Assembly (NCBI GenBank): GCA_032358255.1
Contig: JAULBX010009991.1
Location: forward strand, 248,001-312,000
Length of the DNA stretch: 64,000 nucleotides
Source of the DNA: Heterotrichella gracilis
Lineage: Eukaryota; Sar; Xanthophyceae; Tribonematales; Xanthonemataceae
Direction: 5' to 3'
Position 1 is the first letter of the stretch. Each line of letters opens with the position of its first letter. A program made the translations under genes and the position numbers. Positions 1 through 63,818 of the stretch are shown in pieces. The notes beneath the pieces are model-generated. The model was not told the DNA's origin. It searched no databases and saw nothing but the letters and a program-made list of their open reading frames with translations.

Positions 1-2189
1 TTGGCTGAGGAACTGCCGGAGGAGATTGAGGTGAGGGTTTGGAGTCAGGGGGTTGAAGGGTGATGTGCCTGGCCATGGTTGATATTGCCCTGCCGGGGTT
101 GAAATTGCCCGATCAAAAGAGGCTCGAGACCACTGTCTGTGTCCCTCATCCCAATTGCATTCAAGGCACCCCGATGAACCCTGACCATGCACAGGCACGA
201 CCCCAATCCAGCACATGCACACTCCCTCCCCCTCCCCTTTCCACTCACCCCTCCACTCCCCCCTACCCAGAACCTCACCGACTTTGGCCCCGTCAAGAAG
301 GGCTTTGACAACGTGGGCCTCAAGGCAATTGAGTCGCTCATCTCACTCACCTTCAAGGCTCCCGCCCTGGAGGAACAGCTCAAAAAGCTGTATGTGCACG
401 AGGAGTATTACTCGAGGCGAATCACGGCGGCGGTGCTGCGCACCATCAGGACCGCGGTGCAGGAATTTGATCAGAAGCTGGAGCCAACAGCATTCAGGAG
501 GTGGGTGGTGGTGGTGGTGAGGGGCGGGGCGGGGCGGGTGGTGGTGGTGGTATGGGGCTGGGGCCTAAAGGCTAAAGGGTGCATGGAGATTGATCAGAAG
601 CTAGAGCCAACAGCATTCAGGAGGTGGCTGGTGGTTACTTAATTAGGTAGTTACATGCATTCCGGCAATACAGCCAGATTAGCAGTCAGTCTTGCACATG
701 CGGCGCCACGCAGCTCTTTTCTGGCACTGTTTGAACCACTTATTGATCCCACGCGACTTGAGGTCCTGCTGGAGCAGGTCAGCCCACGTGGCCCTTGGCT
801 TACCTACCCCCTTTGCCCCCTGGTGGTGGTGCATGCGGAGTAAACCAATTTACTCCGACTGGGCAACTGCAGGCATCACACGATTCACCCCACCTCCACA
901 CACCATCCTCCGGCATCCCCAGGCTGGTCAACCATGGTTGCCCAATGGATATATATATATCAGCATACCGGCGCAAAGGCCCAATGCATGCATCACCCAA
1001 CTCCCCTCCCCACCCACGCACCCACCCACCCCCCACCCCCTGCAGGCTGGTCAACCGGGTCGCTGACGCCTGCATCACCCAGTTCACCACCCGCCTGCAC
1101 CAGAACGTGAAGTCCTCCAAGCGGGCAATCGATGAGGCGCTGCTGGGGGGCCTGGCTGCGGACTACGAGGATATCCAGCACCTGTTCACATTCTACCTCA
1201 AGCCGCCTGTGGTAAGCCGCCTGCTGCTGAACTGCTTTGTGTGTTTGCCTGTGGAAAGCGGTGTGTGGGGTGTGGAGGGGGGCGGTTTTGAGGGCGGGGG
1301 GGGGGAGGGCATGCAGGGAGTGCCGGGACAGTCTTGTGGTTGTATAAGGTGAATGAGTACCAGCTGTATGTACATGTAATTAAAAAGGAATTTGCCTCGT
1401 TTATTGAGCTCTGAAAACCCCAAAGGGATATGCCTTCTCAATTGTAGAGAATACCTAAACGTGCACATGAATACAAACTTGAAATGGGCCATTTCATGTT
1501 TGCAGGTTCAAGAGAAGTCCAAGAAGCTGCTGATGCTGATTGAGTTTGTGGGCGCTGCCAGCCTCGAGGACTACACGCTAGCCTACCAGCAGCTGCTCGA
1601 GGCCGACCCAACCATGTCGCCGGATGTGGTGTACCCACTGGTGCGCCAGCGGCAGGACATGACCTTCCAGGACATCAAGGAGGTGAGGGAGGAAACTCTA
1701 GACCCTTGACCCTAAACCCTGGTGTGGGGATGTAGTGTACTGTGTGGTGCGCCAGCGACGGGTGGAAACCCTATACCCTGAACCGTAGGGCAGGGTTGTG
1801 TGCCCCCTGGTGGAGCAGCATCAGGACATGACGTGACAGGACAAGCAGGAGGTGTTGAAAAGGGTGTGTGTACCCCGGCTCAGTGTATCAGTGACAATAG
1901 GAAGTGGCGTTCCCTCAAGCCCACCTCCCAGCCGTCACGCTTACGAAATATTGACACCCTCTTCCCCCCCTCCTCCCCCCTCCAGGTGTTTGACACGTGC
2001 AAGGAGGCCTACCGCAAGTGCCCCGCCTCCAAGAAGGAGGAGGAGTCGCGCACCATGTTCAGGTTCCTCACGGGCGAGGCAAGCTCAAGCCTGCGCGTCA
2101 ACGTGGACGCAAACTTTGTGGCCATGCAGGAGCGCATGTCAAAGCTGTTCACGTGGCAAACAAAACCCGCGCCAGCTGGCGCCACCTAG
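1..2189 (+). CDS. SEC6: Exocyst complex component SEC6 (EXOC3), C-terminal part
   Basis: SEC6 is a subunit of the octameric exocyst that tethers secretory vesicles to the plasma membrane. Five exons are visible: 1-30, 271-500, 1046-1211, 1506-1682 and 1986-2189, giving the last 268 residues. The gene enters from outside the window, so the N-terminal half is missing. The match to plant Sec6 is clear in the C-terminal helical bundle: an EERSFRR-like stretch (here EPTAFRR), then ASLEDYTLAYQQLLEAD (family: AESLDTFTLIY.NILE), then PDVVYPLVRQRQDM and a CKEAYRKCP segment before a short tail ending at TAG. Reading frame is continuous across all four junctions (phases 0, 2, 0, 0). The first exon (1-30, LAEELPEEIE) is less certain because it is short. 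Two of the introns contain copies of exon edges, described separately. It converges on CCB1, whose stop lies about 1.75 kb away. Confidence 0.88.
579..633 (+). repeat. Decayed copy of SEC6 exon 2 3' end within the next intron
   Basis: Positions 579-633 repeat 457-508, the last 44 or so bases of exon 271-500 plus its splice donor, with only a few substitutions. The core from 'gatcagaagct' to 'caggaggtgg' is nearly identical. The copy keeps a GAG|GTGG donor-like border. Confidence 0.85.
1729..1857 (+). repeat. Two decayed copies of a SEC6 exon 3' end in the following intron
   Basis: The end of exon 1506-1682 (about 1630-1685, encoding VYPLVRQRQDMTFQDIKE) is echoed at 1731-1758 ('gtgcgccagcg') and more fully at 1795-1857 (from 'gtgtgccccctggtg' to 'caggaggtg'). 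The second copy has an in-frame TGA, so it could not extend the protein if spliced. Confidence 0.8.
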
Positions 2190-2292
2190 GTATGGTCAGG
2201 CTGTTTCGCCTGGCACAGCAGGCTGTTTCACCTGGCAGCAGCAGCATCAACAGCTGGCGCCACGTGGCCAGGCTTTGTCACCTGGCACAGTC
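2166..2292 (+). repeat. Direct repeats over the SEC6 stop and 3' untranslated region
   Basis: The block 'cagctggcgccac' followed by 'caggctgttt..cctggcac' occurs at 2172-2217 and again at 2252-2290, with a further partial copy at 2219-2240. The first copy overlaps the last codons of SEC6. Confidence 0.7.
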
Positions 2293-3938: not shown

Positions 3939-5970
3939 TCAATTCTCCAGCAGACCCTTTACGTACACCTTGCCCTTCTCAGGCAGAGACAGCTCCTGCA
4001 AGGAAGGGACGCACAACATAAGTCTCAAGGCAGATCTGGTGATAAGAAAGGCAAAGTACTCACAATTCCAGGTCCTCATGGCGCAATTCATTACTGGTTG
4101 GTGGCAAAGTACAGTATGTAGTGGGAAGCAATCAAACAGGCACCACGAGGACGATCATGCATATGTGTCCTCTTCGTTTATGCGTGGATGCCAATGCATG
4201 TTACAACGTAATTGCATTCCATGGAAAGACATGATGCCATGGCGCCATCACACAGAGTGCACATGCTGAAAATGTTGGTATGGGGACGCACCACACACGG
4301 CAACAACCACCCGACAAACCCTAAGCCCTAGACCTTAAAATGACATGGACGGCACACAGCGCATGATGCTGCACTGTACCATCATCCACAGCGCCACAAG
4401 CCGGTCATTAATTTAAGGTTTGCATGCAATGCAGATCCTCCCCAATTGCGTTTCCTCCCTCTCCCCTCCCCCCACCTTGCAGAACCTGTCCAGCTCCTCC
4501 CGGTCCCCCTCGCACACAATGTCGGTCACCTGGTCGTCGTCACTGGTCACCATCTTAACCTTCACCTGGGGGGAGGCACGGGGATGGCTTGCACATTCCT
4601 TTTCATATCACAAGCACACATATGGAGGATCAACATCTCGGTTATATGAGTGCCCATGAATACTTCAGCAGGCAATTTGCCGAGTGCCGCAACACCCTGC
4701 ATTTGCCAGGAATCGACAATCTCATGGTCCCATCCTTCGATTGATCCATCAATGGCCTTTCCACCAGCCCATAAACCTAATCTGGCCAAACCCCAGGACC
4801 AGCGCCTACAGCTAGGCCTACCCACAGTCTGAATTCCAGCCCCCGTACCCACCTCCTCTTTCCTGGTGCCCTTGGAGAGGTAGTAGGCGCCAGCAGCTGG
4901 GCTAAGCAGGGTCATTGAGTACCACCAGTTGCCGCCAAAGGGGGCCGCGATGCTCAGCACAAGGGCAGTGCTTGCCAGACCTGCGAATGGGGAGCAGACG
5001 GCATGACTTGGACGCAAGGGTTTAGGGTTTAGCGCTGGAGGATACAATGGGCAGGGGTTTTGAACAATAAGCACTGCGGTCCACATTTTTTATTGCCGAG
5101 AAAGCATGAAGACAGTATACTGCATTTCCAATCTGCACGTAGTTGACGCAGTGCTTTAAAGCCAATGGCTCGAAAAACACCCCCGCTCAAACACAGAACT
5201 TACTTAGGAACGTGTACAGCACAAGGGAAGCAGCCTGGCTCTTGCTGGCCTGGTACACTCCGGAGAAGGTGATGACGTCCCCGGTGTTCACCAGGTCATA
5301 GTTGTACTTCTTGAAGTATTGGAAGATGGAGCGGGCGCGGGCATCCAGGGGCATGGCGGTGGGCTGTGCTGGGCCTGGCACCTCATACGTCTTGCGCACC
5401 ACGGATGACTTGGGTGCACGCTTGATCAGAGACCACAGGCCTGGGAGAGTGGTTGAAGGGCGATGAGTTGGACAGAAGTGGTGTTTTGGGCCACCATGTA
5501 AAGTGTGCACATGCTAGCCACAACATCTGGGTGGCTGCTGGCATATTATTGGTGTGCAAGGCAAGACAACCCACTGCTGTGGGTGGCTCACCGTGTGGGA
5601 ACGGGTCAGAGGTATTCGGTTTTGATACTGTACCTGGTACTGTCATCACGAAGAGTCCCAGCGTGACGTAGTAGCTTTCCTTGGCAAAGCCATTGGGGGT
5701 GAGCTGGATAGCATCGGCCCTTGCAGGAAGCTCTGTGAGAAGCCACAGGCCAGCAGTGGTTCCAAACAGGATGTTGTTGATGAAAAACCTGTCCTCGGTG
5801 TGTTGGTCCCCGCCAGAGGGGCCCTCCTGTGCCTTGCATACCAGCTGGTGGCTGCTTGGCCGATGCGTTTGCTGTCGTACTGCAAAGGGTCGGAGGGAGG
5901 GCTGCAGGCCTCTTTGGGGCAGGACGCACCGTGAGCTGACGCTCGGTACCGAGAACGTGCGAGACTGCAT
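3939..5970 (-). CDS. CCB1: CCB1, cofactor assembly of complex C (cytochrome b6 haem attachment), plastid
   Basis: CCB1 is a thylakoid membrane factor of the CCB pathway, which attaches the extra haem (ci) covalently to cytochrome b6. Exons on the minus strand: 5970-5634, 5440-5204, 4980-4853, 4565-4476 and 3995-3939, giving 282 residues. All junctions are in phase. The first ~65 residues are rich in S, R, Q and P with few acids, as in a transit peptide. Membrane segments follow (FFINNILFGTTAGLWLLTEL and YYVTLGLFVMTVPGLWSLIK), and later a pair around LASTALVLSIAAPF and WYSMTLLSPAAGAYYL. Family landmarks include PGLWSLIKR, VRKT, GDVITFSG, GTRKEEVKVKM and the ending GKVYVKGLLE. The start at 5970 gives the plausible leader; another ATG ten bases upstream is in a different frame. 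It is divergent from ObgC with 503 bp between the starts. Confidence 0.9.
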
Positions 5971-6473
5971 GGTTTACCACTGCACGAAAGCTGTGGACCT
6001 TTTTCTGTGGTTAGTTTACTGGGCGCCACACCACGCTCTGATACAGGGCACTAGTTTGGCTGCGGCAGGTTGGATATGTCTCGGAACAGATTTGAATCTC
6101 TGTGTGGCAACGTGTTACTGCTACAGGACTGGAGTGTACACAATATAACAACCCTCTACTACTGCAAAAGGTTTGTGCATGCATCGAAGGATCCCTGTGG
6201 CTGCCTGGCAGTGTCCACGTGTCGCTCTACGCGTGGTTCCCAGTAGCCAGCCAGGTGTCGCCACCACAGAGCTCGGAGGTCCCGGGTTCTTTTTCACGCA
6301 TGGCCCTGGAGTGTTGCATGCATCTTTAATTACTTATCACAGCTACATATGCCTGTTCCATTGTTGTCTAAACAACTGCAGTCATCATCAAAATACCTCT
6401 TTTAACACACTTCTCAGGTCTGCTCAACAAAGAGCTTGCAAAACTGTGGGCTAGCTGCTGGGTCCCCACTGCG
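5971..6473. promoter_or_regulatory. Divergent intergenic region between CCB1 and ObgC
   Basis: 503 bp separate the two start codons, so both promoters must lie here or overlap. No TATA box or known element can be assigned with confidence. Both products are plastid proteins, which makes shared control plausible (inference). Confidence 0.45.
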
Positions 6474-9400
6474 ATGGCAACACCATACAGTCTTTCCTCA
6501 CCGCAAGGCGTCTATTCCACCTCCAGCTTGCGACCACGGAACTCGGATGCTGACCAACCAGTGCCGTCGACCAGCAGGGCCGCACAACAGTGCACTCTTA
6601 GGCCGCCCAACCGCGCGTGCGGCCGACCCAGCCGCCTGGTCTGCCAGGCTGTGAAGCAGACCGAGCCTGCACAGCTCAAGTCAGGTAGGTTACTCTGGTG
6701 GTTTAGAGCCCGTGTGGGTGTTTGGACAGCCCAGCCTTCTTGGTAGCTGCTGGGTGTTGTACTTGACACCGTGCTGTGTGTACACTTTGGAAGGGGTACA
6801 CGCTGCTGCGTACAGGCCCATTGAAAAAGCTGCAGCAGCAACCTGGTGTGGATTTAAGCTGAATTCATTTTTGCAGAAAAAATCAAGAAGGAGAAGCACA
6901 AGTACTTTGACGAGGCGGCCATCATTGTTAGGTGGGCTATGCATGCATATACAAACAGTGACTGAAAGACACCAAGCATGCCTGTCTGCTGTACACCGCA
7001 TACCACTTTCACATTGCACATGCCATCACACCCACACCTGCAACATGGCACCCCATCACGGCCGCTCATAGCGCATGCGAGTAGCACCATCCACTTGCCA
7101 CAAACCTATACAGTACGCCTTTGCTTGCATACCTGGAAACGACACTAGACAGCACCACAACGACCCCAAAATCGTCTTGTGCTGTGCCCACTTGTGTGGC
7201 ACCGGTACCAGCTCCCATGAAAATAAACATGTAGACAATTTCAACCCTAAACCCTCAAACCCTAAACACACCCCAACTGACCGCCTGCCTGGTGGCACCC
7301 CGCCCACGCAGGTCTGGCAAGGGGGGCAACGGGGAAATCGCGGTGAAGGGGTCGGGAAAGTGGGTCCCAAACTTCAAGTACAACCCGGGTGGCAACCTGT
7401 CCAAAACCATATGGCTGCCAGCTGGCGAGCCTGCGGACGGGGCGGAGGGTGCAAGTGTTGTGTGAGTGCCATTGACCCTCACCGACTGGATTTGTTGTCA
7501 AGCTGTGAGGTATTGCTTGCCTAGCCCTGTGGGGAATGCCTTGTAGATTTTGATTGCTGACTGAACAATTATCCGGTCATGGTAAGCGGTTAAACGTCTG
7601 CACGTTATTCTTCTCATTACAAACTATGAATTGGCGTTGGCCCGCAGCCTTTATGGAACCATTGTTTATCTACTACTTTTATGTGGAATTGCTGGCCCGC
7701 AGCCTGTTCATTGACACCTGCTACGCCTCCCTCCTGCACCTTCACGTTTATGAAAACCATATTATAATTATATTCGCCATTGTTGTACTAATTTGAAGAC
7801 CTTGGCTTGCAGGCTGTTTGTTGACACCCGCTACGACTCCCTTCTGCACCTGCATGAGCGCAAGGAGTGGACAGCAAAGACGGGCGCACATGGCGACCCC
7901 GCACAGGGCAGCGGGGGACCACGGTAGGCACGGTGCATGCTGGGGCCATTATTGTATTTTCTTTGAACCCGCTTGAAGCACAGGAATGCATGGCATTGCT
8001 GATACCCAGCTCCGACTAGTGGTTTCCTAGAGAGGGAAACCTGTGGACATAAGCTGGTCCCTACTAAAACTGAAAATATGGAACTAAATTTACTGCTCTT
8101 ATTCAGTACACGGGTACACAATCACAATAATCAAGTAACACAGGTATACGAAGACGATAAAGAATATAAAAACATTTCACAGGTCTCGGCGCAAGCAGAG
8201 CGTCAAGACGCAGCCCCTGCGCATCCCAGTCCCCCCGGGCACCCTGGTGCGGCGCAAGCGTGGGGGCCAGGTGCTGGGGGAGCTGGTGCACCCCGGGGAG
8301 TCACTGGTGGTGGCCAAGGGGGGCATAGGGGGCATTGGCGCAGTTGCGCCCAGCAGGGAGCAGAATGTGCGCCAGAGGCAGCGGTCGCAGAGCACGGTAC
8401 GTGTAGGGTTGCATGGTTGTTGGTATGGCGGTGGACGGCTTGCGAGGCTTTTTAGGGCAGACTACTTGGGACCTTTGGGGTGATGAGATCACTTGTTGGG
8501 GGCGTTGGGAAGAGGGGATTATGTGCTGGAGGCGTAGGCGCAGTTGCCCCCAGCAGGGAGCAGAATGTGCGCCAGAGGCAGCGGTTGCAGAGCAGGGTGT
8601 GTGTATGGTTACATGGGTTGTTGTCATGGCCTTGATACCCCAAAGCGAGCTTTGGAAGGGCCCTGGGGTACAAGAATATGCACCATTCATTAATTAAACC
8701 TCATCATATCACCATTCTCCTTTTCATTATAGCCTCCATACTGACCACCGTCCCCTCACAGGACTACGGCGATGTTGTTGAGGACGACAACTGGAAGTTG
8801 GATACCATAGGAGTGGCAGGGGAGGAGATCAGCCTGCAGCTGCTGCTACGGGTGGTGGCAGACGTGGGCATCATCGGCCTACCTAATGCAGGTGAATACT
8901 CCCTTGCTTTCCTTATTTGCTTTGCTTTATGCCCAGCTACAGTGATAGCAGGGGTACAGCTTATTGAAACGGCAAAAGCAGTGCAAGAGTATGCGTGGCT
9001 GCTGCAAGGGATGAAGAACTCTGCTGATCTGGCCTGACCGCTGGAGCGCATGTAACCAACTTCATGCACCTCTGGCTATATATTTGTTTATTTCTCCCAC
9101 TTTCTTGTAGCTCGCTCTTTATGTGACACACTCCATCCACGCAGGCAAATCCTCCCTCCTGGCGGCCCTCACGCGCGCCCTGCCTGAAATTGCGGCCTAC
9201 CCCTTCACCACCCTGGTGCCCAACCTGGGTGTGCTGACTGTGATGGATGGCAGCGGAGTGATGCCGGTGGGCACGCTCACGCTGGCGGACCTGCCGGGGC
9301 TCATCGAGGGGGCGCATGAGGTATGCTCGTGAAGACAAGGAACAATCGTTTTCTAGTTATTATTTTTGAACTGCGGTATTGGGCAGCGGGTTACCAAATG

Positions 9401-10604
9401 GGCGGGTGTGTCAGAAGTTGTTTTTGTGACTACAGCATATGAATTAATGCAATGTTATGTATCCCTGGCGTGTAATCTGATCATTGTTGTTGTTTGTCAG
9501 TAAATTAGGAGTAAGCTTCCTATAATTTTGGGTATCCATGTCGGGTATCCCCAGTAAGGTATCCCCAGTAGGTATCCTCTTTGTGTATTCACTTTGGGTA
9601 CCCTCTTGGACTGTGTGCCGCATGGTATCACTTGTGATAATGGTATGACTTGTAGTAATCAGAGTTGGATGGGTGGCTTGGGGATCGAAGGGCACATCTA
9701 ACTACATCGCAGGGACTACAGCAATCCCACCCATCACACCATGCACACCTGCCACGTGCAGAAATGCACATTTCCCCCTGCGCCTCCCCGCCCCATCCCG
9801 CATTCCAAGGATTGTACCACCCTCCCCTCCCCTGCCCCGTCCCACCCCTCACACCCCGCTCCCCACCCGCAGGGCAAGGGTCTGGGCCGCATGTTCCTGC
9901 GCCACCTGCGCCGCACGCGCCTCATCCTGCACGTCATCGACGCCGCGGCGGCCGACCCCGCTGCCGACTACACCGCTGTGCGCGAGGAGCTGCGCATGTA
10001 CAACCCCGACTACGTGCGCCGCCCACACCTGGTGGCGCTCAACAAGATGGACCTGGAGGACGCCGCTGAGCTGGCGGAGGAGGTGGCCGCGGAGGTGGCA
10101 GCGGCGGCGGCGAGGATACAGGTGGGCTGTTTTGGGTGAATGCGGTTCTTAGGGGTTTGAGTGCTCACAAAGGCAGGGTAATTAGTGCTGCTGAGCTGGC
10201 GGAGGAGTGGTGGGGGAAGTGGCGGCAGCGGCAAAATTGCAGACGTGGGGTAGGCAATGGGGGTACCTTTAAAGTCGTATGCAAGGTGGTGGTGCGCATC
10301 AAAGGTGTGGGCTTTCTGGAGGGGTGAGGGGTCAAAGGCAGGGCATGTTTTTGGGTGGTGGTGGGCCGTGCTCTTTGGTGGCAGGCAAGGGCAACAACGT
10401 GTCTTTTTGATGGTGCAGGCTGACTATGACGGGGAAGCCTCGCTCCCCGAAGCCATGATAGCGGTGAGCGCGCAGGAGGGCACAGGAGTGGCTGATCTGC
10501 AGGCGGCGCTGCTGCGCATGCTGGGGATAGGACAGGGGGAGGAGGAGGAGGAGGAGGAGGACGAGGAGGAGGTGCATTCAGATGATCCCACCCGCTTTTG
10601 GTAG
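6474..10604 (+). CDS. OBGC: Chloroplast Obg-family GTPase (ObgC)
   Basis: Obg GTPases assist assembly of the large ribosomal subunit; the plastid form acts on chloroplast ribosomes. Nine exons: 6474-6684, 6877-6931, 7312-7461, 7813-7923, 8183-8396, 8762-8891, 9145-9320, 9873-10121 and 10419-10604, giving 493 residues, all in phase. A leader of about 70 residues rich in S, R, P and Q is a likely transit peptide. The Gly-rich Obg fold begins at VRSGKGGNG (about residue 88). The G domain follows: G1 GLPNAGKSS (about 284-292), the [13 protein letters not shown] switch, G3 [19 protein letters not shown]4 NKMD (406-409) and G5 SAQEG. The protein ends in a run of acidic residues (Glu/Asp) and lacks an obvious bacterial-type OCT domain. 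Three introns carry copies of exon edges. A TGTAA at about 10751 may be the poly(A) signal. Confidence 0.96.
7692..7747 (+). repeat. Upstream copy of ObgC exon 4 start, with acceptor
   Basis: Positions 7692-7747 resemble the start of exon 7813-7923 including its acceptor: 'cgcagcctgttcattgac' against 'tgcaggctgtttgttgac', continuing to 'ctcctgcacct'. A shorter third copy of the acceptor region is at about 7636-7660. Both lie in the intron before exon 4. Confidence 0.82.
8487..8616 (+). repeat. Copy of ObgC exon 5 3' end and donor in the next intron
   Basis: Positions 8536-8616 repeat 8337-8414 almost exactly ('cagcagggagcagaatgtgc' is identical in both), crossing the donor of exon 8183-8396 into the intron. 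Weaker similarity extends back to 8487. The original donor is ACG|GTACGT and the copy has AGG|GTGTGT. Confidence 0.9.
9529..9605 (+). repeat. GGTATCC short tandem repeats in an ObgC intron
   Basis: The unit 'ggtatcc' occurs at least four times between 9529 and 9577, twice within 'ggtatccccagta', and decays towards 'gggtaccc' at about 9596. It sits in the intron between exons 7 and 8. Confidence 0.7.
10184..10262 (+). repeat. Decayed copy of ObgC exon 8 3' end in the next intron
   Basis: 'gctgagctggcggaggag' at 10192-10209 repeats 10065-10082 of exon 9873-10121, and similarity continues weakly through 'agtggcggcagcggc' and the donor-like 'cagacgtgggg'. Confidence 0.78.
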
Positions 10605-16143: not shown

Positions 16144-18239
16144 TCACTGCCGCTGCGCAAGCCGCTCTTGTGCTTTCGCCTTCTGTAAACCCAAATTTGC
16201 AATTATTGCACATTGACAATGTTAAAATGACGCAATTGTCCAAAATGACAATAATGCAATATTGTCATATATATATGACGCACCATGTACTTGTGGTCCT
16301 CGTACACCTCTTCCACCAGCTCCGCAAGTATTTTCCCACTGTTGTTGGGGACCAGCGCAGCCCACACGGCTGGCGGCAGACCTGCAGCGCACACAACATC
16401 ATGCGCATGCATCCACCACATGGCCTCCAGCACCACCTACAACAGTGGTTCCCTTCTTCCTTCTCCAAGCTCATGCCATGCCAGTGCCATGTGATACGCG
16501 CACGTGCATCCAAATGAAGGGTGCAAAAGCAAAATTGCATGTGCATCCAAGTCTGTGGGTACCGAGCGGGCTGCTGTAGGGTTTAAAGCGTAGAGACAAT
16601 TAGCCCCAGCCCCCCTGCCTCCCTGTAGAGTCTAGGGTTTAGCGCAAGGGTTGAGGGGATGAGGGGCCTCTAGCCCTGGGCATCTTCCTCCTTGTATGCT
16701 GCCATAACCTCCACCCAGCTTCGTGGCAAATTATGGTAGGAATTAGGTTCATATTTAGGGTTCCCGGGCTTTGAGCCCTGCGCACCTTCCTCTTTGTATG
16801 CTGCTATCACCTCCACCAGCTCCCCGCTGTACATGCCTGACAGCACAACCGCCCGCTTGGACCCCAGGAGAGGCTGCAGGGGACCAGGGGGAAATGAGGT
16901 TGAACACAATTTACAAAGTGACTGGAATCAGTAGTCAGCAACCTTAACCAACTCCCGGGCAGAGCGTTTCCCAATCCTGGTAACCATACAAGAGCCACAC
17001 GCGCATCAATTAATCAATCCATTGCCTGCATCCCCTCGAGTGCACCTACATGCGGCTCACCTGCTCGTATGGTGGGGGTGGTGCTACCTGCAGTGCATCC
17101 CACAGGCTTCCGCTGAGCATGGCCTGGGTGCAAGGGATGATCTGCAAGGCAGGGAAAACCCTTAGGGTACACGGTGACCCTCAACCCTTAGGGTACGACA
17201 GGGCGCTCAACATGTGGGGTGCTTGGTGCCGTAGGGTTTGACATTTAGATTTTGGGTGCATGCACTCAGCAATGCATTCCTGCATACACCCATCCATCAC
17301 TCGAATGCGATGCATGCGGCATTCCATGGGCAGGTCCAAATCAGCACCCAGTCTTAAACCAATGGCATCAAGCAGTCCCACCCCTTCACCATGTGGTAAA
17401 CTCTAACTTTGACCGTAACCTTGATTCCGACCCTGACCCTGACCCAAAACACCCGTCCACCTTCCCCTCCCTACCTTGACCATATCCGCCTCCAATTGCA
17501 ACATCATGCTCCGCACCCCCTCCACCTCTACCTGCTGGAACCCCACCAGCAGCATGGCCTGCAGCCAGGGGGGTGTGATACAGGTCAGGGGAGGAAAGGC
17601 AGGGCAGGACGGACAAGGCTGTGGCAGATCATTTGAAATGAATCAATTCTTGAAATCACCTCTTCCACTTTGCGTTCGTGTAACCAGGGCGGCTTGCATT
17701 GCACGAGAGCTAGCATTGCGACACCCCTCGATGTGTCCCAAACCCTAAATCCATAGCCACGCCCCAAACCCTAAACCCCATAGCCATGCACAGCGGGTCC
17801 CAAACCCTAGATACCCAAACCCCAGAGACGTGCACCAGTGACCCATATGCCCTAAACCCTGAACCCTAACCCTAGACCCTAATCATACCAGTGGGCCAAA
17901 CGCGTCCTCGCTGGTCCCTCCTACCCCGCCAGCACTTTCCACCTCGATGGGGGCCAGCATCGGGCCCTCATCGCTGTTCTGGGTCCCACCAAAACCCTTG
18001 AGTAGGTCGTCGAACAGCCCGTGTGCAGCCACGCTCCGAGGCTGTCGTGCCACACACCCCGCGCATCGACCCCAACTGGACTGGTGTAAGGACCTTGGTG
18101 GTAGGGGTTGGTGGGAAAGTTTATGATAGTATTGACATGTCTGCAGTGGTTTATTGCGGTGGGTACTGGCAGGTTTAAGATTTGACAACCGCCCTGAGGT
18201 GGCCGCACCGTTGTGTGCTGAGGAACAGGTGGGACGCAT
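16144..18239 (-). CDS. Uncharacterised DUF3783-like protein, probably plastid-targeted
   Basis: Six exons on the minus strand: 18239-17889, 17558-17475, 17141-17061, 16873-16786, 16381-16284 and 16182-16144, giving 246 residues. Every junction is in phase. The first ~85 residues are rich in S, T, R, N and Q and low in acid, like a transit peptide; the start at 18239 was chosen for that reason. The body has two similar halves: AMLLVGFQQVEVEGVR.. to VKIIPCTQAMLSGSLWDAL, and RAVVLSGMYSGELVEVIAAY followed by GLPPAVWAALVPNN and LAELVEEVYEDH. The second half fits my memory of the DUF3783 pattern (a hydrophobic strand ending in SGF/SGM, a helix, then A.VP.N and ELVEE). No catalytic residues can be named. 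It ends with a basic KAKAQERLAQRQ tail. Introns hold telomere-like repeats and an exon echo. Confidence 0.7.
16672..16724 (-). repeat. Copy of an exon 3' end in the DUF3783-like gene
   Basis: Positions 16672-16724 ('cttcctccttgtatgctgcc') repeat 16775-16826 ('cttcctctttgtatgctgct'), which covers the donor and end of exon 16873-16786. On the coding strand the copy lies downstream, inside the following intron. Confidence 0.85.
17730..17882. repeat. Interstitial telomere-like CCCTAAA repeats in an intron
   Basis: About nine copies of 'aaccct' or 'ccctaa' variants occur between 17730 and 17882 within intron 1 of the DUF3783-like gene, right up to its donor. The unit matches the plant/green-algal telomere repeat TTTAGGG on the other strand. 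Confidence 0.75.
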
Positions 18240-19933: not shown

Positions 19934-20296
19934 CGGCACGGCAACGGATGGACTTTAGGACCAATGCCAGCAGTTGAAGCTTGCTGCAGCAGGAGGTTTC
20001 TCGCTAGGGAGTATGGGCACTGATTTGGGACATTGGCGGGGATTGGCAGCACTGCATTGGGGGTGGAGTGCACCAGCACGATCATGTTGCGGGTGCAGCA
20101 CACATGGGACTCAATCCTATAGGGCCAAACACACCTAGGTTCACAGTTTGAGTTGGACAGATAGTGAACGCTGGACTTGGTTGGGATGCATCATATGATC
20201 TCAATCAGGTGCACCTGGTCCAGCGGCTACTGCCAGTGATTGCCACAGCATCACTAAGTCTTATGAGTTCATGCTTCTCTGATAATTGACAACACA

Positions 20297-20371
20297 ACAC
20301 CATAGCAATTCTAAACTGTTGTAAGAGTTGACAAAGAAGCACCATAGCAATTCTGAACTGGTGTAAGAGAT
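20297..20371. repeat. Two-copy tandem repeat
   Basis: 'caccatagcaattct' followed by 'aactg.tgtaagag' occurs at 20298-20328 and 20340-20370, with two or three differences. Confidence 0.8.
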
Positions 20372-20901
20372 TCCACAAGATGAAATTGGATCCATGATCG
20401 ATGGGAAAGTGCTCCATGATCCACGTGTGATCAAACATGGTCACCATTGCGTGACAGTGACTGTCACGCAACCACGCAGCATGGCGGCGTGGCATGAAAG
20501 AAGAAAGAAAGAAAGAATTCTATGAATTGGAGGCACTAAGGCGGAATAAAGGGGCCTGTGGCACCATATGCCGTGCCACACTGACAGTGTGGGAGAATGA
20601 GTGCCAGTGATGGGCGGGTGTGGGGGTAAGGCTCTCCAGACTACTCCAGGAGTAGTATATATTCTCGGTCGGTGACACGTGGAAATCTGAATCGAATGTA
20701 ACAGCCTGGTTGACTGAGCATATATTCGATAACAATACAGGCCCTGCTCTGAGTCAGTGACACCTGGCACCGTCATCAACAGTACGCAGGGTCCAGGGAA
20801 AGTTTCAAACTCTGTGGAGTTGGGGTAACCTTAATAATATTAAGCTTGTTAATAACCGTTAAGGCAACTGCTAACTTAGCTATTAATGTGGCATATCTAA
20901 T

Positions 20902-20930
20902 ATGAAGGTTATTAATTTAATAACCTTCAT
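20902..20930. repeat. 29-bp AT-rich perfect palindrome
   Basis: Two 14-bp arms ('atgaaggttattaa' and its reverse complement) flank a single T. A third half-copy 'atgaaggttattaa' follows at 20935-20948. Confidence 0.85.
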
Positions 20931-21388
20931 GATATGAAGGTTATTAATTTCATAAAATTCATGATAATCAGGTACTACCTGGTGGGCCACAGGGCGCCAA
21001 TGCGCAGTACTGGCCAGTATCACTACAGTAATAGCTGGACCAGCCTTTGTGACAGTCCTACAATGGTACATACGCAGCACGGGTATCTTGCACACAAATT
21101 CATGCAATGCATGCATGCCATCAAAGCACACTGTGCTTTGACAGCGGCTGTCAGCAGCTGCTTGAACAAAAGGAAACCCTTAGTTTAACAAACGACGGCA
21201 CTCTGTGGTGACCAGGTATCTTTCAACAATACATCTTTATTAGAAGGTTGTAAACATACCTCAGCCCTTGTCCTGATTTCAGCGGAGGTGTGAGTATATA
21301 TCTTTCGTCAATGAAAGTTGTATAGGAGTATTCACACGTTGCTGGCTACAAAGAAAGGCATTCCACACCCAAAACGGCTTACTGCTGT

Positions 21389-21415
21389 GTGTGCCCTTCA
21401 AAGTGAAGGGCACAC
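21389..21415. repeat. Perfect 12-bp stem with 3-nt loop
   Basis: 'gtgtgcccttca' at 21389-21400 pairs exactly with 'tgaagggcacac' at 21404-21415, with loop AAG. No adjacent gene explains it. Confidence 0.8.
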
Positions 21416-22600
21416 ATAAGGGACGAAAAGTTCCCATAAAAAATGCAAGACATAAGTGGGTGAATACCGTAGGCTTCTAGCATCAAATTAACGCCCTGGA
21501 TTGCCATGGTATTCAGCGGTGGCCCGTCGAGTGGTGCCCAGTGCTACTTACATGAACATCTGCTAGTGAACAGAACAGTTGGGTCAACTTGCCAGGAGGT
21601 ATTGCCGCACGAATACTGTAACAGCTTGCCTGAAATCAAGTAGGGGGAGTGTGCCTACCATGACGAAAATATCAGAGATGGACTACCTAACCATGACGTC
21701 GCTGCCCACAGGCTGCGGCGCACTGTCCCCCAACCGTTGCAGCGCAAAGAGCGCTCCACCACCACCAACCAGCTGCAATTTGGTCTCAGGCACCATCATG
21801 GTGCGTCAGCTCGCAGCCGTCATAGTCCACTTGGGCCCAGCGCGCGCCCCCCTGCCACTCGCATGCCAGCTGGCGGTTGAAGAAGGCAGCGCGGTACGCC
21901 ATCTCAAGGGGTGTCCTCCTGCGTTTAGGGTTTAGGAGTTAGGGTTCAGGGGGGAGGAGGGGGGTGGAGGTGGGGAGGGGGGGCGAGAAAGCGGTTGTTT
22001 GCCTGGGATGAGGGGCAGGGGGGGGTGGAGGGTCACTGGGGGAGGAGGTCAAATGGGAGAGGAGATGTTGGCAGGGGTTGGGTTCCAACGGGGGCAAAAC
22101 TCCTCTCTGAATTTTCCAAATTCCATTTTTAAATGAAGAATGGATGGGCTGGTTGGCAGCGGATGGAAAAATCTGCCTACTAAATGGACTGCCGTATTTT
22201 CACAGTGACGCCTCCTTTTCATTAATGCTGACAGGAGGCCACAAAAAGAAATGTTTTTGACCCTATGCCAACATTTTTCAAGACTGACCTCTAGACACCT
22301 ACCCACTCCCCAAATCTCACAGAATGAGGCTAACAGGGTGGCAAACTGACCCTTGCGCAGTCCTCAATCCAATGGAAGAGTTGGCGGTTGAAGAAAGTTT
22401 GTAAAAGTTACAAACAAATTAACATATATCTCCTTTATGGGATAATATAATTGTATTTACATTTAATTTATACAGTAATTATATATTTATACAATCAAGA
22501 TCCTAATCATATAATTAAATAATCATTTTGTACCCATGCATGCTTATGCTGCATCGACTGTATGCCCTTTTGGGGCAAGTACAACCATTCTTATAGGTGT

Positions 22601-25387: not shown

Positions 25388-25424
25388 GGGGGGGGGGGGG
25401 GGGGCCCCCCCGGGGGGGGGGGGG
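25388..25424. other. G17-C7-G13 homopolymer block, possible assembly artefact
   Basis: Seventeen G, seven C and thirteen G in succession. This could fold on itself or form G-quadruplexes, but in an assembled genome such a block often marks a join or polishing error. Confidence 0.8.
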
Positions 25425-35632: not shown

Positions 35633-38600
35633 CTAAGATACCCCCTCCTCCTCAGCAGTGCCCTGCGTGTCCACCAATGCCCTGCGTTGCACCCTGAGAT
35701 GGCCGAAGCTCGCCGCACCCATCGACGATCCGCCAAACACCGTCGGTCGGTATGACGTCTCCGCCTCGTACTGCTGCACCACGCGGTTGAGGGCGGTCAC
35801 CCCCAGGTGGTCGGAGCGGCCCATGATGCACACAGTGCCTGGGGTAGGGGCGAAAGTGGGCGGGTGAGTGGGTGATTGCTCATAGGCAATGAGTTACACA
35901 GTCACTCACTTGCATGCATTCCATTAAATACAGCAAGCACAGCATTAGCTGTACACAAGGGGTTCCAAGCAGTCTATATCCTGCCACTGATTATACACCT
36001 TGTTGAGGAACCAAGTGCACAGGGGAGTTGCCATGCTCCATGTCCAGCGGCACACCAACATCCAGTGACGTGCAGGACTGCATGCCCACAGCAACACGCA
36101 CACACCAACCACCACACCCCCGCCGCTGCACCTCCACTTCCTCCCCCCGTGATCTTGGCCCCATAAAGGGGCGGTTCCCTCCCCGCCGCGCGCGCCGCCT
36201 CCATCTCCCCCCTCACCAGCGCCACCAGGCGGTCGGTACCTGCCGACCCCAGGCCACAGCGGCTGTAACTGGCATGTGACTGCAGCATGAGCTCCCCCAG
36301 GCACTCGAGGATGTCTGAGCTCTCGCTGGTGGAGGCGGCGACCAGGAGCTGCAGGCAAGTTTGGTACTTGGTTAGTTGGTTAGTTACACGATTTTAGCGT
36401 TATAGCCAGGTTCACAGTCGCCTTGCAGATGCTGCAGCCTGCAATGGGATGTGCTGCAAACGGTGGTGCACCTGGTGTGAGCGGGGTGAGCATTGGTGCT
36501 CAATGTCATAATGTAGAAGGTTGTATTTGATGCCAGGACGCGCAAGATGAACAGATGATAAGCAGTGCCAGGAACCATATGGCACACATGTGCAGAACTG
36601 GCTATAGTGGGTATATTGCTGTAGTTCATGTCGCTAAGTAAGGCAAATAAACGTAGCTTGCGAAGGCCCCCGGTGCACAACACAAGGCTTCGAATATGCA
36701 CAGGATGACCTCCCCATTCACCTGCTGGAAGGTCTTCACCCTTGCGTTCTCATGGATGGGGTGGCTGGTGGGTATCCGCACGCTGTATGTTGTCCCTGGC
36801 TTGACCTCGGTGGCGGTGCACCAGTGGCTGCCATAGGCACGCAGGAAGTCAGAACCCTGTATGGTCTCAGGCAGCTGCGTCTCGTAGGCGTGCAGGAACT
36901 CGCTGGGGCTGACGTTGGCCAGGTAGCCGCCACCTGGCAGCGGGAGGGATGATGTCATGACATGTGGCAGGAGGGCTGGGGAGCTGTGTTGGGCTGGGCC
37001 ACTGTCAGAGGGTGCATGCATGTGATGACTGATTGCGATGGTGATGGTGATAATTGATGATGGTGCGGATCGAAGAAATGATAATGATGGTGGTGGTGGT
37101 GGTTTCGGCTGTCGTAGATTCAGGCACTGCGTTGCCACTGTCTCCAGAGCAAGGTTATAGATTTGATGGTGGCAAGTAGCCAAATTTGCTGCTTTGCCAG
37201 GACTATGTACAAGTGGCGACAAGCAGATGGTCGGCGTAACACTAGGATGGCTAAAAGGATTATCTTGTAACCGTGCTTGTAGCTTATGCCCACACCCAAC
37301 CTGGGCCCTCACCTATCCTCGGCGGCTCCTCCACCACCCCATTCCCAAGGTGGCCCCTGCTCTTTGAAGGTGAACCCTGTGCAGCGCGCGCCTGTGCCTG
37401 CAGGTGACTCAGCATGCGCAGCCCCATGAAGGTTCCCACACGCACTGAACCGTAGTCGGCGCCCCCCACGCTGTGGCGGATGCCTTCGCGAGCAAAGGAC
37501 TAGGTTGGTGATAGAGTAAAGGGTGGGTGAAATCATACGGCACGCATGCCAGAGGGGGTATGTAGACCCGTCAAATATAAATATCCATCTATCCCAAGCC
37601 ATATGGCCGCTCATTGTGAGGAAGTGAGAAACATGTCCAGCCCACCATTGTCCAATTGACAAAATTGCGTACCCCGCCAACCACCTGGAAACAGTGGGCA
37701 GCCCCTGCCTACCCACCCACCCACACCCTCCCACCTGAGTCCATCCCCCAGAAGCGTATGTGGTGTGGGATGGCCACAGTCCCCTGTACCTCTGCGGGTT
37801 GGCACAGCAGCGCAAGCAGCTTGGACTCGCCCCCCAGTGCAGATGCCATCTGGTCCATCACACCGCAAGGGGCACCCACTACCAGGTTCTCAACCTGCAG
37901 AGGGGAGGAAAAAATGGCGCTGGGGTGTAGGTGGGTTTGTGTGTTGACACGGGGGGGGATGGGCAAATGGTGCAGGGGACGGATGGGTCGGGCGTGTTCA
38001 AGATTGCTGCATTGTTTCTTTTACTTGCGGCTTGATATTGTGTTACTCGCCATGCTTGTTTGTTGCATTAATCGGATTAGGTTCCATCAGGTTTCAGGTT
38101 CATCAGGTTTGCATCGCGCTGGATCCGGTTTCTATGCAATCCCCACCCAAAGCGCACAGCAGGGCAAAGCCACCACCTCCAAAAGCGGCAGGTATAAATC
38201 CCCCTGTCCGCCTACTATCCACCGGCCCCCCAACCCACCTTCTGGCACAGCAGCGCCAGCTCCCTCCCCTCCAGCACCAGCCCGTGCGCCGCCGCCAGCG
38301 CCGCCAGCACCGCCACCTCCACCGCCGCTGAGCTGGACACCCCCTTGCCCTCAGGCACCTCAGAGGACACCAGGATGGACAGCGCGTCAGGAACCACCAG
38401 ACCCCTCTCGCGCATGAGCACCAGGATGCCTCCAGCCACGTAGGCGGCCCAGCTGCATGGTGGCGGGGAGGGGGGTTATGGGTTTAGGGTTTAGGGTAGG
38501 GTTATGGGTTACATGTTGGCGGGGAGGGGAGGTTAATGGTGGGATGGGTTGGTATGTGCATGCACCACTACCCCATGATTGTATAGGGTTTTGGGGAGGG

Positions 38601-41600: not shown

Positions 41601-43590
41601 TGGATCTCCAGCAGCTTGCGCAGAAACGGCTCCTCGTTGAAGTAGTCGCGGCGCACAAACACAAGCGGGGTGGAGGCAGCAAGGCACTCCGACACAGTCC
41701 CGTACCCTATCTTGCCCAGGACGCAGTCTGCTGCGCCAATCTGTACATGGGAAGAGTAAGGAATTGGGGTGGAGGTGGAGAGAGGGGCCATGAGGAGTGG
41801 AATGGGGAGAGTGGGAAATCTGTGGGTGTGCTGGTGGTGGGTCCATCAATCAGATGGCGCATTGGTGCTGGGAACCTCTGGATGGTGCATGTAGTGCATT
41901 AGAATTCTCTGAAATCATGACATGAGGGTCCATGGTTGAATCTGGCTGAAGCTTGGACTGGAACGGCAGGCGATAGCCCATGTGCGGGGACAAATTTGAC
42001 ACTGTGCGCACGCACCAGGTCGGGTGTGTAGATGTCTGCCGGCGCCTGGCTGAAGTTGGGTGGCAGCGGCCCCTTGCTGATTGGCTTGCCCCCGCTGCAG
42101 ATGATGCACTGCCAGCCTGGGGGGAGAAAGTCCTCCTCCATGACCCATGCGCCTGAGGGGTGGCCGCCAAATGTGAACAGCACCAGGCGGGTGTCCATGG
42201 GGATGCCTAGCTCATCGCGCACCTAGGGAGGATTTGGATAGAGAAGTAGGTGATTGGCAGTCAGCCATATCGTCTACCCTGCTAGATGATTTGGTAGTGG
42301 ATTGGTTTGTTGAGTGCATGTGGAGAGCTGTGAGGTGACAGCAAGACCACCACCCAGGCAACTGGTGGCTTGTGTGCAGGTGGAGGGCAGTGAGTTGCGA
42401 GACCACGGACCAGGCATAGCACGTGTGCAGGTCCCAGAGCGGCTGTGCCAACATGTGCCACACAGGCACACAGGGAGTACCACAATGCTACATTCAAAGC
42501 GGTATAAAGGTACAAAAGTGCACACTCCTACCTCCTGTCTGCTGCGCTTTGGGTGCCTGACCACCAGCGGCACGTCCACCACGTGCCTGAAGGCGGGCAT
42601 GGGGCTGTAGCCAGGCAGGCGCAGCAGCAGGTCTGCCTTCGCCAGGTCCTCGGCTATCTGCCACACCACCTGGCGGAAGGAGCTGCCAGCCACGTTGAGG
42701 TATTCCGAGTAGATAAAGTCTGCAGGTGGCGTACGAGGGTTGGGGTTGAGAGCATGGGCAAGTGGGTTGCTTGTGTAGCGGTGGGCATCTTGTGGATATT
42801 TGCGGGGTAAAGCAGAGAAAGAGCCGATTTCACAGGTAACATGGCACCACCGTGCAATATGAGGTTTGGGTGACGAGCGGGCGCTCCAGTAGGATACCCA
42901 TGCATATGGCGCTGCGGGTTGGACTGGCATGACAGCTCAAATGGGTATTACCACGGTTCAAGCTGCGCACCATCACAGACAAGGTTTATGGGTACTCACC
43001 CCAAATGAATTTGGACACACACACACACGGCACCCAAGTAGGGCACCCATGCACATGCGGGTTGACTTGGGCATTACAAGTCGAATGGGTTTTTGCCATG
43101 GTTCAGGCTGCCACAAAGCACAGATCGGTTGATGGGTCCTGAGGTACTCACCCCACGTGAAGTTGGACACACACACGCATGGCACCCCAGCTGCAGCAGC
43201 AGCAGCGCATGCGATGGGGACCACATCTGTCACAACCAAGTCCCCTCCATTCGCCTTTATCCAAGCCACCTCCCTCTCCAGTATCGCCTCCCTCTGGTCA
43301 CCAGCGATCTTCTGGTACTCTTCCAGGGAGCCCTTTCTGTCCACTGTGAATGCATCTAGCTGCTTGGCACCACAGTCCAGCACTGCTTTTCTGAATGAGA
43401 ACTGCTTGGCAGGCACCTCCCGGAGGAATATGGAGGCTGGTACTGCCGTCACCACCACCACGCTGTGACCCAGCTCCACGAGGTGCTTACATATCTCTAC
43501 ACTCCGTGTTGCATGTCCATAGCCGTGCCCTGTGCAGTAGTACAGTATGTTCAGCGGTTCACCGCCCTCCATTGTTGTTCTGCCAAGCAC
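35633..43590 (-). CDS. ARA1: L-arabinokinase (ARA1 type): glycosyltransferase-like plus GHMP kinase domains
   Basis: ARA1 phosphorylates L-arabinose released from cell-wall polymers in the salvage route to UDP-arabinose. Fifteen exons on the minus strand: 43590-43152, 42719-42532, 42222-42016, 41740-41508, 41224-41035, 40610-40460, 40063-39936, 39502-39322, 38989-38833, 38452-38239, 37894-37735, 37483-37313, 36933-36722, 36348-36132 and 35838-35633. They join in phase to 1017 residues, like the plant enzyme. The N-terminal half resembles a glycosyltransferase ([10 protein letters not shown] near residue 23, [28 protein letters not shown]). The GHMP kinase half begins at [12 protein letters not shown] (about 518) with the ATP loop [25 protein letters not shown], and the C-terminal [13 protein letters not shown]. 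One acceptor (at 37484) reads AAG rather than CAG. Two introns contain an exon echo and an AT-rich foldback. Divergent from DDX42 with 422 bp between starts. Confidence 0.96.
39090..39243. repeat. AT-rich foldback (MITE-like) in an ARA1 intron
   Basis: Arms at about 39150-39179 and 39196-39225 ('cagatgatgaaa' and its complement at their cores) match at about 27 of 30 positions, with a 16-nt loop. Flanking sequence repeats parts of the arm ('gaattctttaattcctacaat'). The block is very AT-rich compared with its surroundings. Confidence 0.75.
42910..43040 (-). repeat. Copy of ARA1 exon 1 3' end plus donor and intron start
   Basis: 42991-43034 repeats 43138-43180, the end of exon 1 with its donor ('ggtactcacccca' and 'ttggacacacacac'). 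Flanking intron sequence is duplicated too: 42915-42990 resembles 43048-43137 (for example 'aatgggt' then 'ccacggttcaagctgc' against 'ccatggttcaggctgc'). It is a tandem duplication of roughly 140 bp across the splice site. Confidence 0.85.
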
Positions 43591-44012
43591 AATGCTACCA
43601 CGTCCTATTCATTCTGTCCAGGTGTTATACCTTGCTATAGCTAGCCTGCGCTTTGAAATTGGGCGCTGAGGCTTTCGAGCTGGGCTCCAGCTGGCTCTCA
43701 GGACTAGTCCTTCGCTGGCCCAGGACTGGGACTTCGCGTGTGGCACTGTAGTGCCATTGGGACAAAATACATATTTTAACATATTTCGCCCACTTCAGCT
43801 TATACGTTTAATAGGCAGTACCTTTCGTGCAACCACCTTTCTATGTGCACAAAAACATGTTTGTGGGTATCAGTCGCATCATAGAGTTCGCTCAAATTAA
43901 GATATTGACGTAAATGCATGCATGCGACCGTGTATGCATGCATAGTGAACCTGAGCGGGTGTGGAACTTTGTCGTTCTCCACTTGATGTGAAGGTATCTA
44001 AAGAGATTTACC
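43591..44012. promoter_or_regulatory. Divergent intergenic region between ARA1 and DDX42
   Basis: 422 bp between start codons should contain both promoters. It has a 'gcatgcatgcgac' stretch near 43917 and a second 'gtatgcatgcata' near 43932. No element is assigned. Confidence 0.45.
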
Positions 44013-50000: not shown

Positions 50001-51110
50001 CATATCATGCTACTCATCATTGTGTTGTATATTATTATTGACCATATTAGTTACCATGTTGTTATATCATTTGTACCCACTTTTGCAGCATGGATTACAA
50101 ATTGCACGGGTAGCGCCCACCATTGTCTGTCAGGGTGGAAGATACATACTTATGGTGTATGTATACATTTAGGCAAGGATTACCTTGTGCACAGGTAGCA
50201 CCCACCATCATTGGCTAGGATGCGCTAGCTATGTCACTGTGTATCGTATCCATGCTGGATTGCAAAGTGCACATGTACCTCCTGCCACAGGCAACTTCCG
50301 GAGCTCCTTTGTTGCATCGGGGACCACTGGGGGCGACCAGCAGCAGCGCGCAACCATTGTGGCACCCAAGCACAGCACGGGGCGCTATGTGCCTCCGCCC
50401 CCAAAGCCCGTAACCGAGGTGCCACTGTACTCTGGCCCACCCCTGCCCTACATTGCGCATACGCCAATGGCGCCCTCGATGACTCCCAACTCGGAAGCCG
50501 CTCAAAAGGTGAGTAAAATACACAGGCTTACAACTTTTGTGTATAGAACATCCTTAGTACCTAATGCTGGGTGCACGTGTACCTTTTTTATATTGTCCAA
50601 GGTTGGTGTTTTGGTGCATTGTGGTTGATCTTCAAAAGGCATGGGTGGCATTGATGTGCACAGTCCTGCACTTCTGAGGCTCTCATCATAGCCGATCCAC
50701 TGATTGGTGCCACATATTGCGCCACCAAGCTGTACCTTGCACCTCAATGCCATGCGCACCAATAGTGGCGAATCTGCGTGCAGGCTATTGCGGCTGCGCA
50801 AGCCATAGCGGCTCGCCTGGCGGCACAGGCGGGTGCGTCCGCCAGCGATGCGGGGCCTGGGCCCAGTGGCGGCTCATTCAATGCAGCCCCAGTGGATTAT
50901 GATCAGCTGAATGCATCGGCAGGGGGGGCACGGCAGCGGGGACCCACAGGGTTTGACCAGATGCCTGGTGGGGTCGCGCCAAGGGGTGCGTCAGGTTTTG
51001 ATCAGCTGCCACTGCCTCCGCCACCACCTGTGCCCCCAGCGGTCCTGCCACCAGGGGAGGAAGAGCCACCCAGCAAGCGGCGAAGAAGGGGTTGGGATGT
51101 GCGGTCGTAA
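44013..51110 (+). CDS. DDX42: DEAD-box RNA helicase DDX42/RH24 (U2 snRNP-associated)
   Basis: DDX42 is an ATP-dependent RNA helicase that binds SF3B1 in the U2 snRNP before prespliceosome assembly. Sixteen exons: 44013-44159, 44240-44296, 44377-44433, 44558-44647, 44791-44925, 45148-45536, 45845-45911, 46248-46499, 46804-46929, 47242-47400, 47727-47878, 48387-48649, 48902-49096, 49387-49890, 50291-50508 and 50784-51110, giving 1045 residues in phase. The family mark [17 protein letters not shown] sits near residue 126. The core has [11 protein letters not shown] and the Q motif, [11 protein letters not shown] (about 317-327), [22 protein letters not shown] (427-430), [25 protein letters not shown] and [11 protein letters not shown] Gly/Arg-rich stretch (about 657-681) and a long Pro/Gln tail follow. 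The first four exons, encoding about 110 residues, do not resemble plant RH24. Introns carry a strong foldback, (AAT)n and repeats. Confidence 0.95.
44998..45021 (+). repeat. Dispersed 24-bp repeat, copy 2 (copy 1 at 657-680)
   Basis: 'gcattccggcagtacagc' continuing to 'cagatt' matches 657-680 with one difference. One copy is in a SEC6 intron and the other in a DDX42 intron, 44 kb apart; both are preceded by 'gtagtt'. Confidence 0.7.
45584..45715 (+). repeat. Long near-perfect inverted repeat (hairpin) in DDX42 intron 6
   Basis: Arm 45584-45634 and arm 45662-45715 are reverse complements over about 50 bp with only small indels (core 'ccagcatgcacccaaatgc'), separated by a 27-nt loop. Weaker pairing extends outward (tggcggcc against the complement of tgccgcca). 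The transcript would form a long stable hairpin between exons 6 and 7. Confidence 0.93.
47051..47076 (+). repeat. (AAT)n microsatellite in a DDX42 intron
   Basis: Eight or nine AAT units in a row in the intron between exons 9 and 10. Confidence 0.95.
48668..48750 (+). repeat. Two-copy tandem repeat in a DDX42 intron
   Basis: 'tagcatgg..tcatggggcatttg' with 'acccttgggg' occurs at 48669-48711 and again at 48712-48750, just after exon 12. Confidence 0.75.
50089..50292 (+). repeat. Three copies of the sequence before DDX42 exon 15
   Basis: 'ggattacaaattgcacgggt' (about 50092), 'ggattaccttgtgcacaggt' (about 50178) and 'ggattgcaaagtgcacatgt' (about 50258) recur at roughly 80-bp spacing. Each is followed by 'agc.cccaccat' or 'cctcctgccaca'; the last copy runs into the true acceptor at 50290. 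Confidence 0.75.

Positions 51111-57335: not shown

Positions 57336-63818
<6,483 letters not shown>

Follow-up and report, generated by a model that had tools for sequence, protein, structure and literature searches.

Copies of coding-exon edges in the introns of Heterotrichella gracilis as possible scars of double-strand-break repair

How does the edge of an exon come to stand a second time in the intron beside it, and what becomes of the two copies afterwards? The question is raised by a 64,000-nucleotide stretch of the genome of the xanthophycean alga Heterotrichella gracilis (positions 248001–312000 of its contig, C101; referred to here as the window), in which an initial annotation had noticed decayed copies of exon ends or starts, or 'exon echoes', inside adjacent introns. 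Here we analysed the window together with further stretches of this 68.5-Mb genome (903 contigs) and found that the echoes are real and reach beyond the window, that long duplications favour coding edges and that the DNA between the copies is enriched in telomere-like sequence. Exon echoes may have been left where double-strand breaks at coding-exon edges were repaired, a reading to which we give an even chance.

Echoes in the window and in other stretches of the genome

Self-comparison of the window revealed seven significant direct repeats with copies no more than 2.5 kb apart, and no significant direct repeat farther apart than that. In the predicted gene models, all seven pair an exon edge with the adjacent intron, in seven introns of four genes (Table 1). 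As the alignments show, an echo is the end or the start of an exon, often with the donor or acceptor and some intron sequence. The initial annotation had counted eight introns in five genes, which holds for these seven in SEC6, ObgC, the DUF3783 gene and ARA1; an acceptor echo in SEC6 is marginal, and the repeat in DDX42 is an array confined to the intron. The gene finder chose the echo donor in SEC6 (exon 271–623), and for this pair (456) and the ObgC pair at 8328 we inferred from the protein which copy is coding. A further partial copy of SEC6 1610–1685 lies at 1728–1762. The least clean case is the ObgC pair at 10062, an alanine-rich stretch with a 12-bp coding repeat.

The sample beyond the window comprised C2:1-100000, C24:1-100000, eight kinase loci and C57:100001-130000, which brings the total to 294 kb plus the eight short loci. 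Gene models were made ab initio by a gene finder whose training set took in all of this except C57; predicted genes with less than 240 coding bp were ignored. The predicted window proteins are sensible, with Sec6 (PF06046), DUF3783 (PF12646) and Obg (PF01018) domains found with Pfam and with GHMP-kinase and DEAD-box helicase domains, and the names ObgC, ARA1 and DDX42, taken over from the initial annotation, agree with these domains.

At a score of at least 20, 28 of 734 exon flanks matched their own intron, compared with 13 of 44,040 pairings with introns of other genes, 11 of 7,057 pairings with a different intron of their own gene and 1 of 734 when the own intron was reverse-complemented. 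This comparison of own and mismatched introns, which the initial annotation had called for, excludes chance. Its suggestion of a process at work beyond single genes is supported in so far as echoes reach beyond the window, and the direct orientation that it noted was borne out: a scan of 264 kb gave 44 direct and 0 inverted pairs at offsets of 30–500, and echoes recur in the two further 100-kb stretches and in the 30-kb stretch outside training, C57, which holds edge pairs at offsets of 104 and 152 and intronic pairs at 114 (beside the first) and 32. The duplicated stretch is around 45–180 bp long, spans or adjoins a coding edge and is repeated in direct orientation, mostly 70–210 bp away. Echoes are not clustered by gene (5 genes with at least two, compared with 4.85 expected), and the 26 long edge events in 294 kb extrapolate to around 6,000 per genome. 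BLAST suggested that duplications are no smaller than 90 bp, but a diagonal scan did not confirm this and gave offsets from less than 20 to around 220 bp; the apparent floor probably stems from the way in which BLAST treats near-diagonal matches.

One copy is constrained and the other decays

Mismatches between coding and non-coding copies number 51/407 at the first codon position, 53/406 at the second and 86/405 at the third (chi-square over positions, P = 6.5e-4; 28 of 38 pairs, the 10 overlapping pairs being left out here and overlapping pairs likewise in the placement counts below). These counts imply that the non-coding copy has changed by around 13% regardless of codons, and the coding copy mostly at third positions. 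Pairs in which both copies are non-coding show 132/606 mismatches; two free copies have thus diverged by nearly twice that 13%. The coding copy is therefore shown to be constrained and the copy in the intron or untranslated region to decay neutrally, which agrees with the initial annotation in so far as it had one copy staying exonic and the intronic one decaying.

Of 35 splice dinucleotides, 27 survive in the other copy, for a neutral expectation of 0.766. Kept at the neutral rate, the 'spare' splice sites of which the initial annotation spoke give no sign of being used, and the echoes look like neutral relics. Its further suggestion, that introns are lengthened, fits the sizes found: the 27 of 435 introns with an echo at a score of at least 20 have a median length of 383 bp, compared with 252 bp in the rest (P = 5e-4), an excess of about one offset. 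A match is also likelier by opportunity alone in a longer intron, which may explain part of this difference.

Long duplications favour coding edges

The 26 long edge events comprise 14 donors, 8 acceptors, 3 stops and 1 start, that is, 22 of 854 splice edges and 4 of 128 ends of coding sequences (CDS). Because start and stop edges are affected as often as splice edges, splicing is not needed, and splice sites are not supported as the essential feature. What edge events have in common is that one copy is coding and the other non-coding.

Before counting, pairs with a low-complexity score of at least 0.8 or under the ungapped score were dropped, which left out ObgC 10062 and ARA1 42880. Of the 35 clusters that remain at offsets of 60–260, 26 lie at coding edges (14.5 ± 2.9 expected by random placement); of the others, 5 are non-coding and 4 fall inside predicted exons. 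Without the window, 22 of 29 lie at edges (11.9 ± 2.6 expected). The SEC6 pair at 462 was counted as within an exon because the gene finder had used the echo donor.

Constraint on one copy keeps such pairs visible for longer. In simulations of the decay of random head-to-tail duplications under four parameter sets, 47–49% of the detected duplications fell at splice edges and 30–32% were intergenic. Among the observed clusters that are not wholly coding (60–260 bp), 26 of 31 lie at coding edges (P = 2e-5 to 6e-5; 22 of 26 without the window); the simulated edge events are splice edges only and the observed 26 include 4 CDS ends, which, added pro rata, would lift the expectation to an estimated 50% or so. 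Four of the five long non-coding clusters are no more than 25 bp away from an exon, and there is no purely intergenic one. Short duplications (<60; n = 16) are distributed otherwise, with 1 at an edge, 13 non-coding and 2 within exons; for short and long clusters, respectively, edge counts of 1 and 26 stand against clearly non-coding counts of 11 and 1, in a Fisher table drawn from 51 clusters less 6 near an edge and 6 inside exons. Overlapping windows scored without any model (score of at least 20) gave 3 of 782 for intergenic DNA, 1 of 62 for introns, and 50 of 1,330 and 65 of 1,214 for exon edges. We think that the edge preference is real.

Two intergenic tandem duplications in the window (20286–20369 and 20900–20966; units of 42 and 32 bp) are typical of the short non-coding class. 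A 24-bp-unit array at C2:35326-35737 lies in a predicted coding region and is in frame by its period.

Telomere-like sequence between the copies

The initial annotation had proposed plain tandem duplication, an account that may fit only part of the events. The copies cover less than 0.6 of the period in 49% of events, compared with 10% of simulated head-to-tail duplications; about half thus do not look plainly head-to-tail, and telomere-like words stand between the copies. An early reading that most spacers lack homology to their flanks was softened after gapped extension. A repeated element, as an introner or transposon insertion would require, was not found as filler: two window spacers occur once each in the genome (in a search that skips simple repeats), and 24 spacers compared with the 294 kb less C57 revealed no shared family beyond weak or local matches.

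TTTAGGG is the telomere repeat of this genome; arrays of it lie within 10 bases of the start of at least 7 contigs in the right polarity, and TTTTAGGG is absent. Ten-mers of (TTTAGGG)n number 271 in 114.7 kb of introns, 38 in 85.9 kb of intergenic DNA and 2 in 93.4 kb of exons, with 0 in shuffles. With one mismatch allowed, coverage by the telomere unit is 3.1% in introns, 1.1% in intergenic DNA and 0.6% in exons; 12 control heptamers of the same base content cover 1.1–2.1% of introns. A telomere-type 8-mer occurs in 85 of 435 introns.

Within the spacers, 215 of 1,416 bp are telomere-like, compared with 34.5 ± 22.1 in random intron segments (0 of 1,000 draws as high), and 10 of 24 spacers hold a telomere word, compared with 2.8 expected. 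The enrichment persists within the same introns, for which 15 of the 24 spacers are usable (200 of 1,014 bp compared with 41.8 ± 20.3; 0 of 5,000 draws). Telomere words are found in 11 of 27 echo introns and in 74 of 408 others (P = 0.0095) and, among introns of at least 280 bp, in 11 of 21 and 47 of 157 (P = 0.049). The words lean by strand: TTTAGGG runs number 19 in the donor half of introns and 9 in the acceptor half, and CCCTAAA runs 24 and 33 (P = 0.037), which fits telomerase growing inward from exon ends, as splicing signals would too. No clear strand lean is seen in the 13 intergenic telomere runs that lie less than 1 kb from a CDS.

Telomere-type words elsewhere in the window lie at 2736–2746, 5017–5032, 7243–7267, 17740–17860, 21923–21936, 38480–38497 and 62429–62442. 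Fifteen of the 16 exact telomere-type runs in the window are in predicted introns, and one (2736–2746) is outside genes. The palindromic word TGCATGCA is also among the commonest intron 8-mers (80 counts, both strands).

Table 1 Echo pairs, telomere-repeat words and related repeats in the window
Feature	Positions	Strand	Evidence
SEC6 exon end and donor (intron from 501), coding copy	456–512	+	91.4% to 578–635 over 58 columns; PF06046
SEC6 intronic echo, exon end and donor	578–635	+	self-comparison, alignment
SEC6 acceptor echo of 1026–1056, marginal	903–933	+	score 15; background peaks of 14 and 15 (410 windows)
SEC6 exon end and donor (exon ends 1682), coding copy	1610–1685	+	alignment; self-comparison core 1626–1685/1795–1854
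SEC6 intronic echo of 1610–1685	1781–1854	+	76.7% over 60 columns
Telomere-repeat word (CCCTAAA type on + strand) in SEC6 spacer	1709–1720	-	between copies 1610–1685 and 1781–1854
ObgC intronic echo, acceptor and exon start	7693–7744	+	82.7% to 7803–7854
ObgC acceptor and exon start (exon from 7813), coding copy	7803–7854	+	alignment; Obg domain PF01018
ObgC exon end and donor (exon ends 8396), coding copy	8328–8458	+	87.4% over 103 columns (8328–8429/8528–8630), longer gapped
ObgC intronic echo of 8328–8458	8528–8661	+	gene finder called 8557–8596 an exon
ObgC exon end region (exon ends 10121), alanine-rich, coding copy	10062–10108	+	83.0% to 10187–10232
ObgC intronic echo of 10062–10108	10187–10232	+	self-comparison
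DUF3783 gene exon end and donor (exon 16786–16873), coding copy	16766–16821	-	PF12646
DUF3783 gene intronic echo of 16766–16821	16664–16720	-	84.2% over 57 columns
Telomere-repeat word (TTTAGGGTT) in DUF3783 spacer	16754–16762	+	between copies 16664–16720 and 16766–16821
ARA1-like exon end and donor (exon 43152–43572) with intron, coding copy	43029–43190	-	GHMP kinase domain elsewhere in gene
ARA1-like intronic echo of 43029–43190, full tandem	42880–43038	-	73.1% over 171 columns
DDX42-like 85-bp intron array, ends at acceptor, no exon copied	50072–50287	+	50072–50207/50160–50287

Origin of the echoes

Telomeric repeats at mammalian breaks sometimes come with target duplications (6 of 130 loci in rodents and 4 of 25 in primates; PMC2246262), and horse interstitial telomeric loci include 3 of 66 with a target duplication and 2 with mixed changes, ascribed to staggered breaks; for human interstitial telomeric repeats, the share in introns fits random insertion (PMC7215372). 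In mouse and human cells with induced breaks, fill-in of staggered ends by CST and Pol alpha-primase followed by end joining yields direct duplications (PMC8355091). Given this copy–filler–copy anatomy, a minority class among interstitial telomeric repeats in mammals, and the fill-in of staggered ends in mouse and human cells, we propose repair of staggered breaks. A staggered break would arise in or near a coding exon, and fill-in at both ends would duplicate the overhang; extra DNA, at times telomerase-made TTTAGGG, would be added before the ends are joined. Selection would then remove outcomes in which the second copy is read as protein. Only events with the second copy in non-coding DNA would survive, and the remnants would be exon edges beside a longer intron or untranslated region.

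Several observations weigh against this proposal. The breaks, the fill-in and the action of telomerase are inferred. When events are split into three identity bins, the coverage deficit reaches significance in the lowest but not in the other two (P = 2e-4, 0.17 and 0.066); several loci are plain tandem arrays, and direct-only orientation is compatible with plain tandem duplication too. The spacer test for telomere sequence was run on events in which the words had already been noticed; 14 of 24 spacers have no telomere-like word, two that do (C2 59097 and window 1610) contain a further copy of the repeat, and telomere words also occur in 74 of the 408 introns without an echo. The edge preference, too, would lose significance if visibility alone predicted 70% (P = 0.06 for 26 of 31).

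That last figure would favour the view that local tandem duplications arise at one rate everywhere and that those at coding edges are merely visible for longer, through selection on one copy. The constraint on the coding copy and the existence of full tandem arrays agree with it as well. Simulated decay, however, expects 47–49% at splice edges, far from 26 of 31, and 30–32% of clusters to be intergenic, where no long one is purely so; short duplications decay alike yet are mostly non-coding (13 of 16), and the model-free windows show an excess at exon edges over both intergenic DNA and introns. We consider a uniform background of this kind rather unlikely. That the telomere-like words are splicing signals, with branch-point-like CCCTAAA near acceptors and G-runs of TTTAGGG near donors, and lie between the copies incidentally, would account for their strand lean and for the 85 of 435 introns that carry an 8-mer, but we judge it improbable: coverage of introns by this unit exceeds that of all 12 control heptamers, the unit is the genome's own telomere repeat, and spacers are enriched within the same introns.

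Two further explanations concern the splice sites themselves. If echo sites were kept as alternative splice sites or alternative exons, the survival of GT or AG in 27 of 35 copies and the gene finder's choice of some of them would make sense; that survival equals the neutral expectation, however, and at the first two codon positions the non-coding copies vary with the freedom that neutrality predicts, which makes such retention very improbable. The least probable account is intron birth by duplication of an exonic AG|GT segment (the Rogers–Hellsten model). It shares with our data exon-derived sequence in introns and direct orientation, but the donor/acceptor likeness that it predicts at an intron-length offset was unseen in 336 introns (mean of 11.05 matches, compared with 11.15 at random), and one intron reached at least 22 matches where 0.26 were expected.

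In a wider version of the break-repair proposal, staggered breaks would be concentrated in coding exons and their repair would often bring in filler made by telomerase, copying exon edges into the non-coding DNA beside them, seeding telomere repeats in about one-fifth of introns and acting as a main engine of intron growth, so that gene structure is a readable record of repair; this is possible, and we put it forward tentatively. The decay of source sequences mostly hides how introns grow and what supplies their sequence; here coding constraint preserves one copy, and the source, age and anatomy of the added DNA become readable. If the break-repair reading is true, intron growth is tied to double-strand-break repair and telomerase, in a genome that would allow both to be measured. 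The echoes are also a warning for gene finders, as echo splice sites were taken as real in SEC6 and ObgC.

Relation to known systems

Among the titles and opening lines of abstracts listed in searches of the openly licensed literature, none described exon-edge copies that enclose telomeric filler, although so limited a negative says little. No name for the exon-echo pattern came up there, yet closely related models are in print, in the form of tandem duplication, break repair and interstitial telomeric repeats.

The models of intron birth are alike in part. Intron birth by duplication, described for Drosophila (PMC2891723) and for a potato gene in which the duplicate runs from the 3′ part of an intron into the beginning of the following exon, likewise has exonic sequence and its splice sites duplicated directly; the outcome there is a new intron, as long as the duplication in the basic model, whereas here an existing intron grows and the register test was negative. 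Dual-specific AGGT sites in tandem repeats (PMC10809524) resemble the echoes in that repeats within genes multiply AG|GT sites and splicing can hide an extra copy, but introns there are multiples of the repeat unit and here they are not. The gap-filling model likewise has direct repeats around new intronic DNA; its repeats are short and its intron new, whereas here copies of around 45–180 bp lie beside existing introns.

The break-repair systems are related in other respects. Duplications made by CST and Pol alpha-primase (PMC8355091) are direct copies, as here, where such an origin is deduced from old scars, many of them with filler. Interstitial telomeric sequences (PMC2246262, PMC7215372) share with the echoes the species' own telomere unit in the chromosome interior, at times between direct copies of the target; unlike those of mammals, the duplications described here span coding edges, and the introns carry five times the intergenic density of the repeat.

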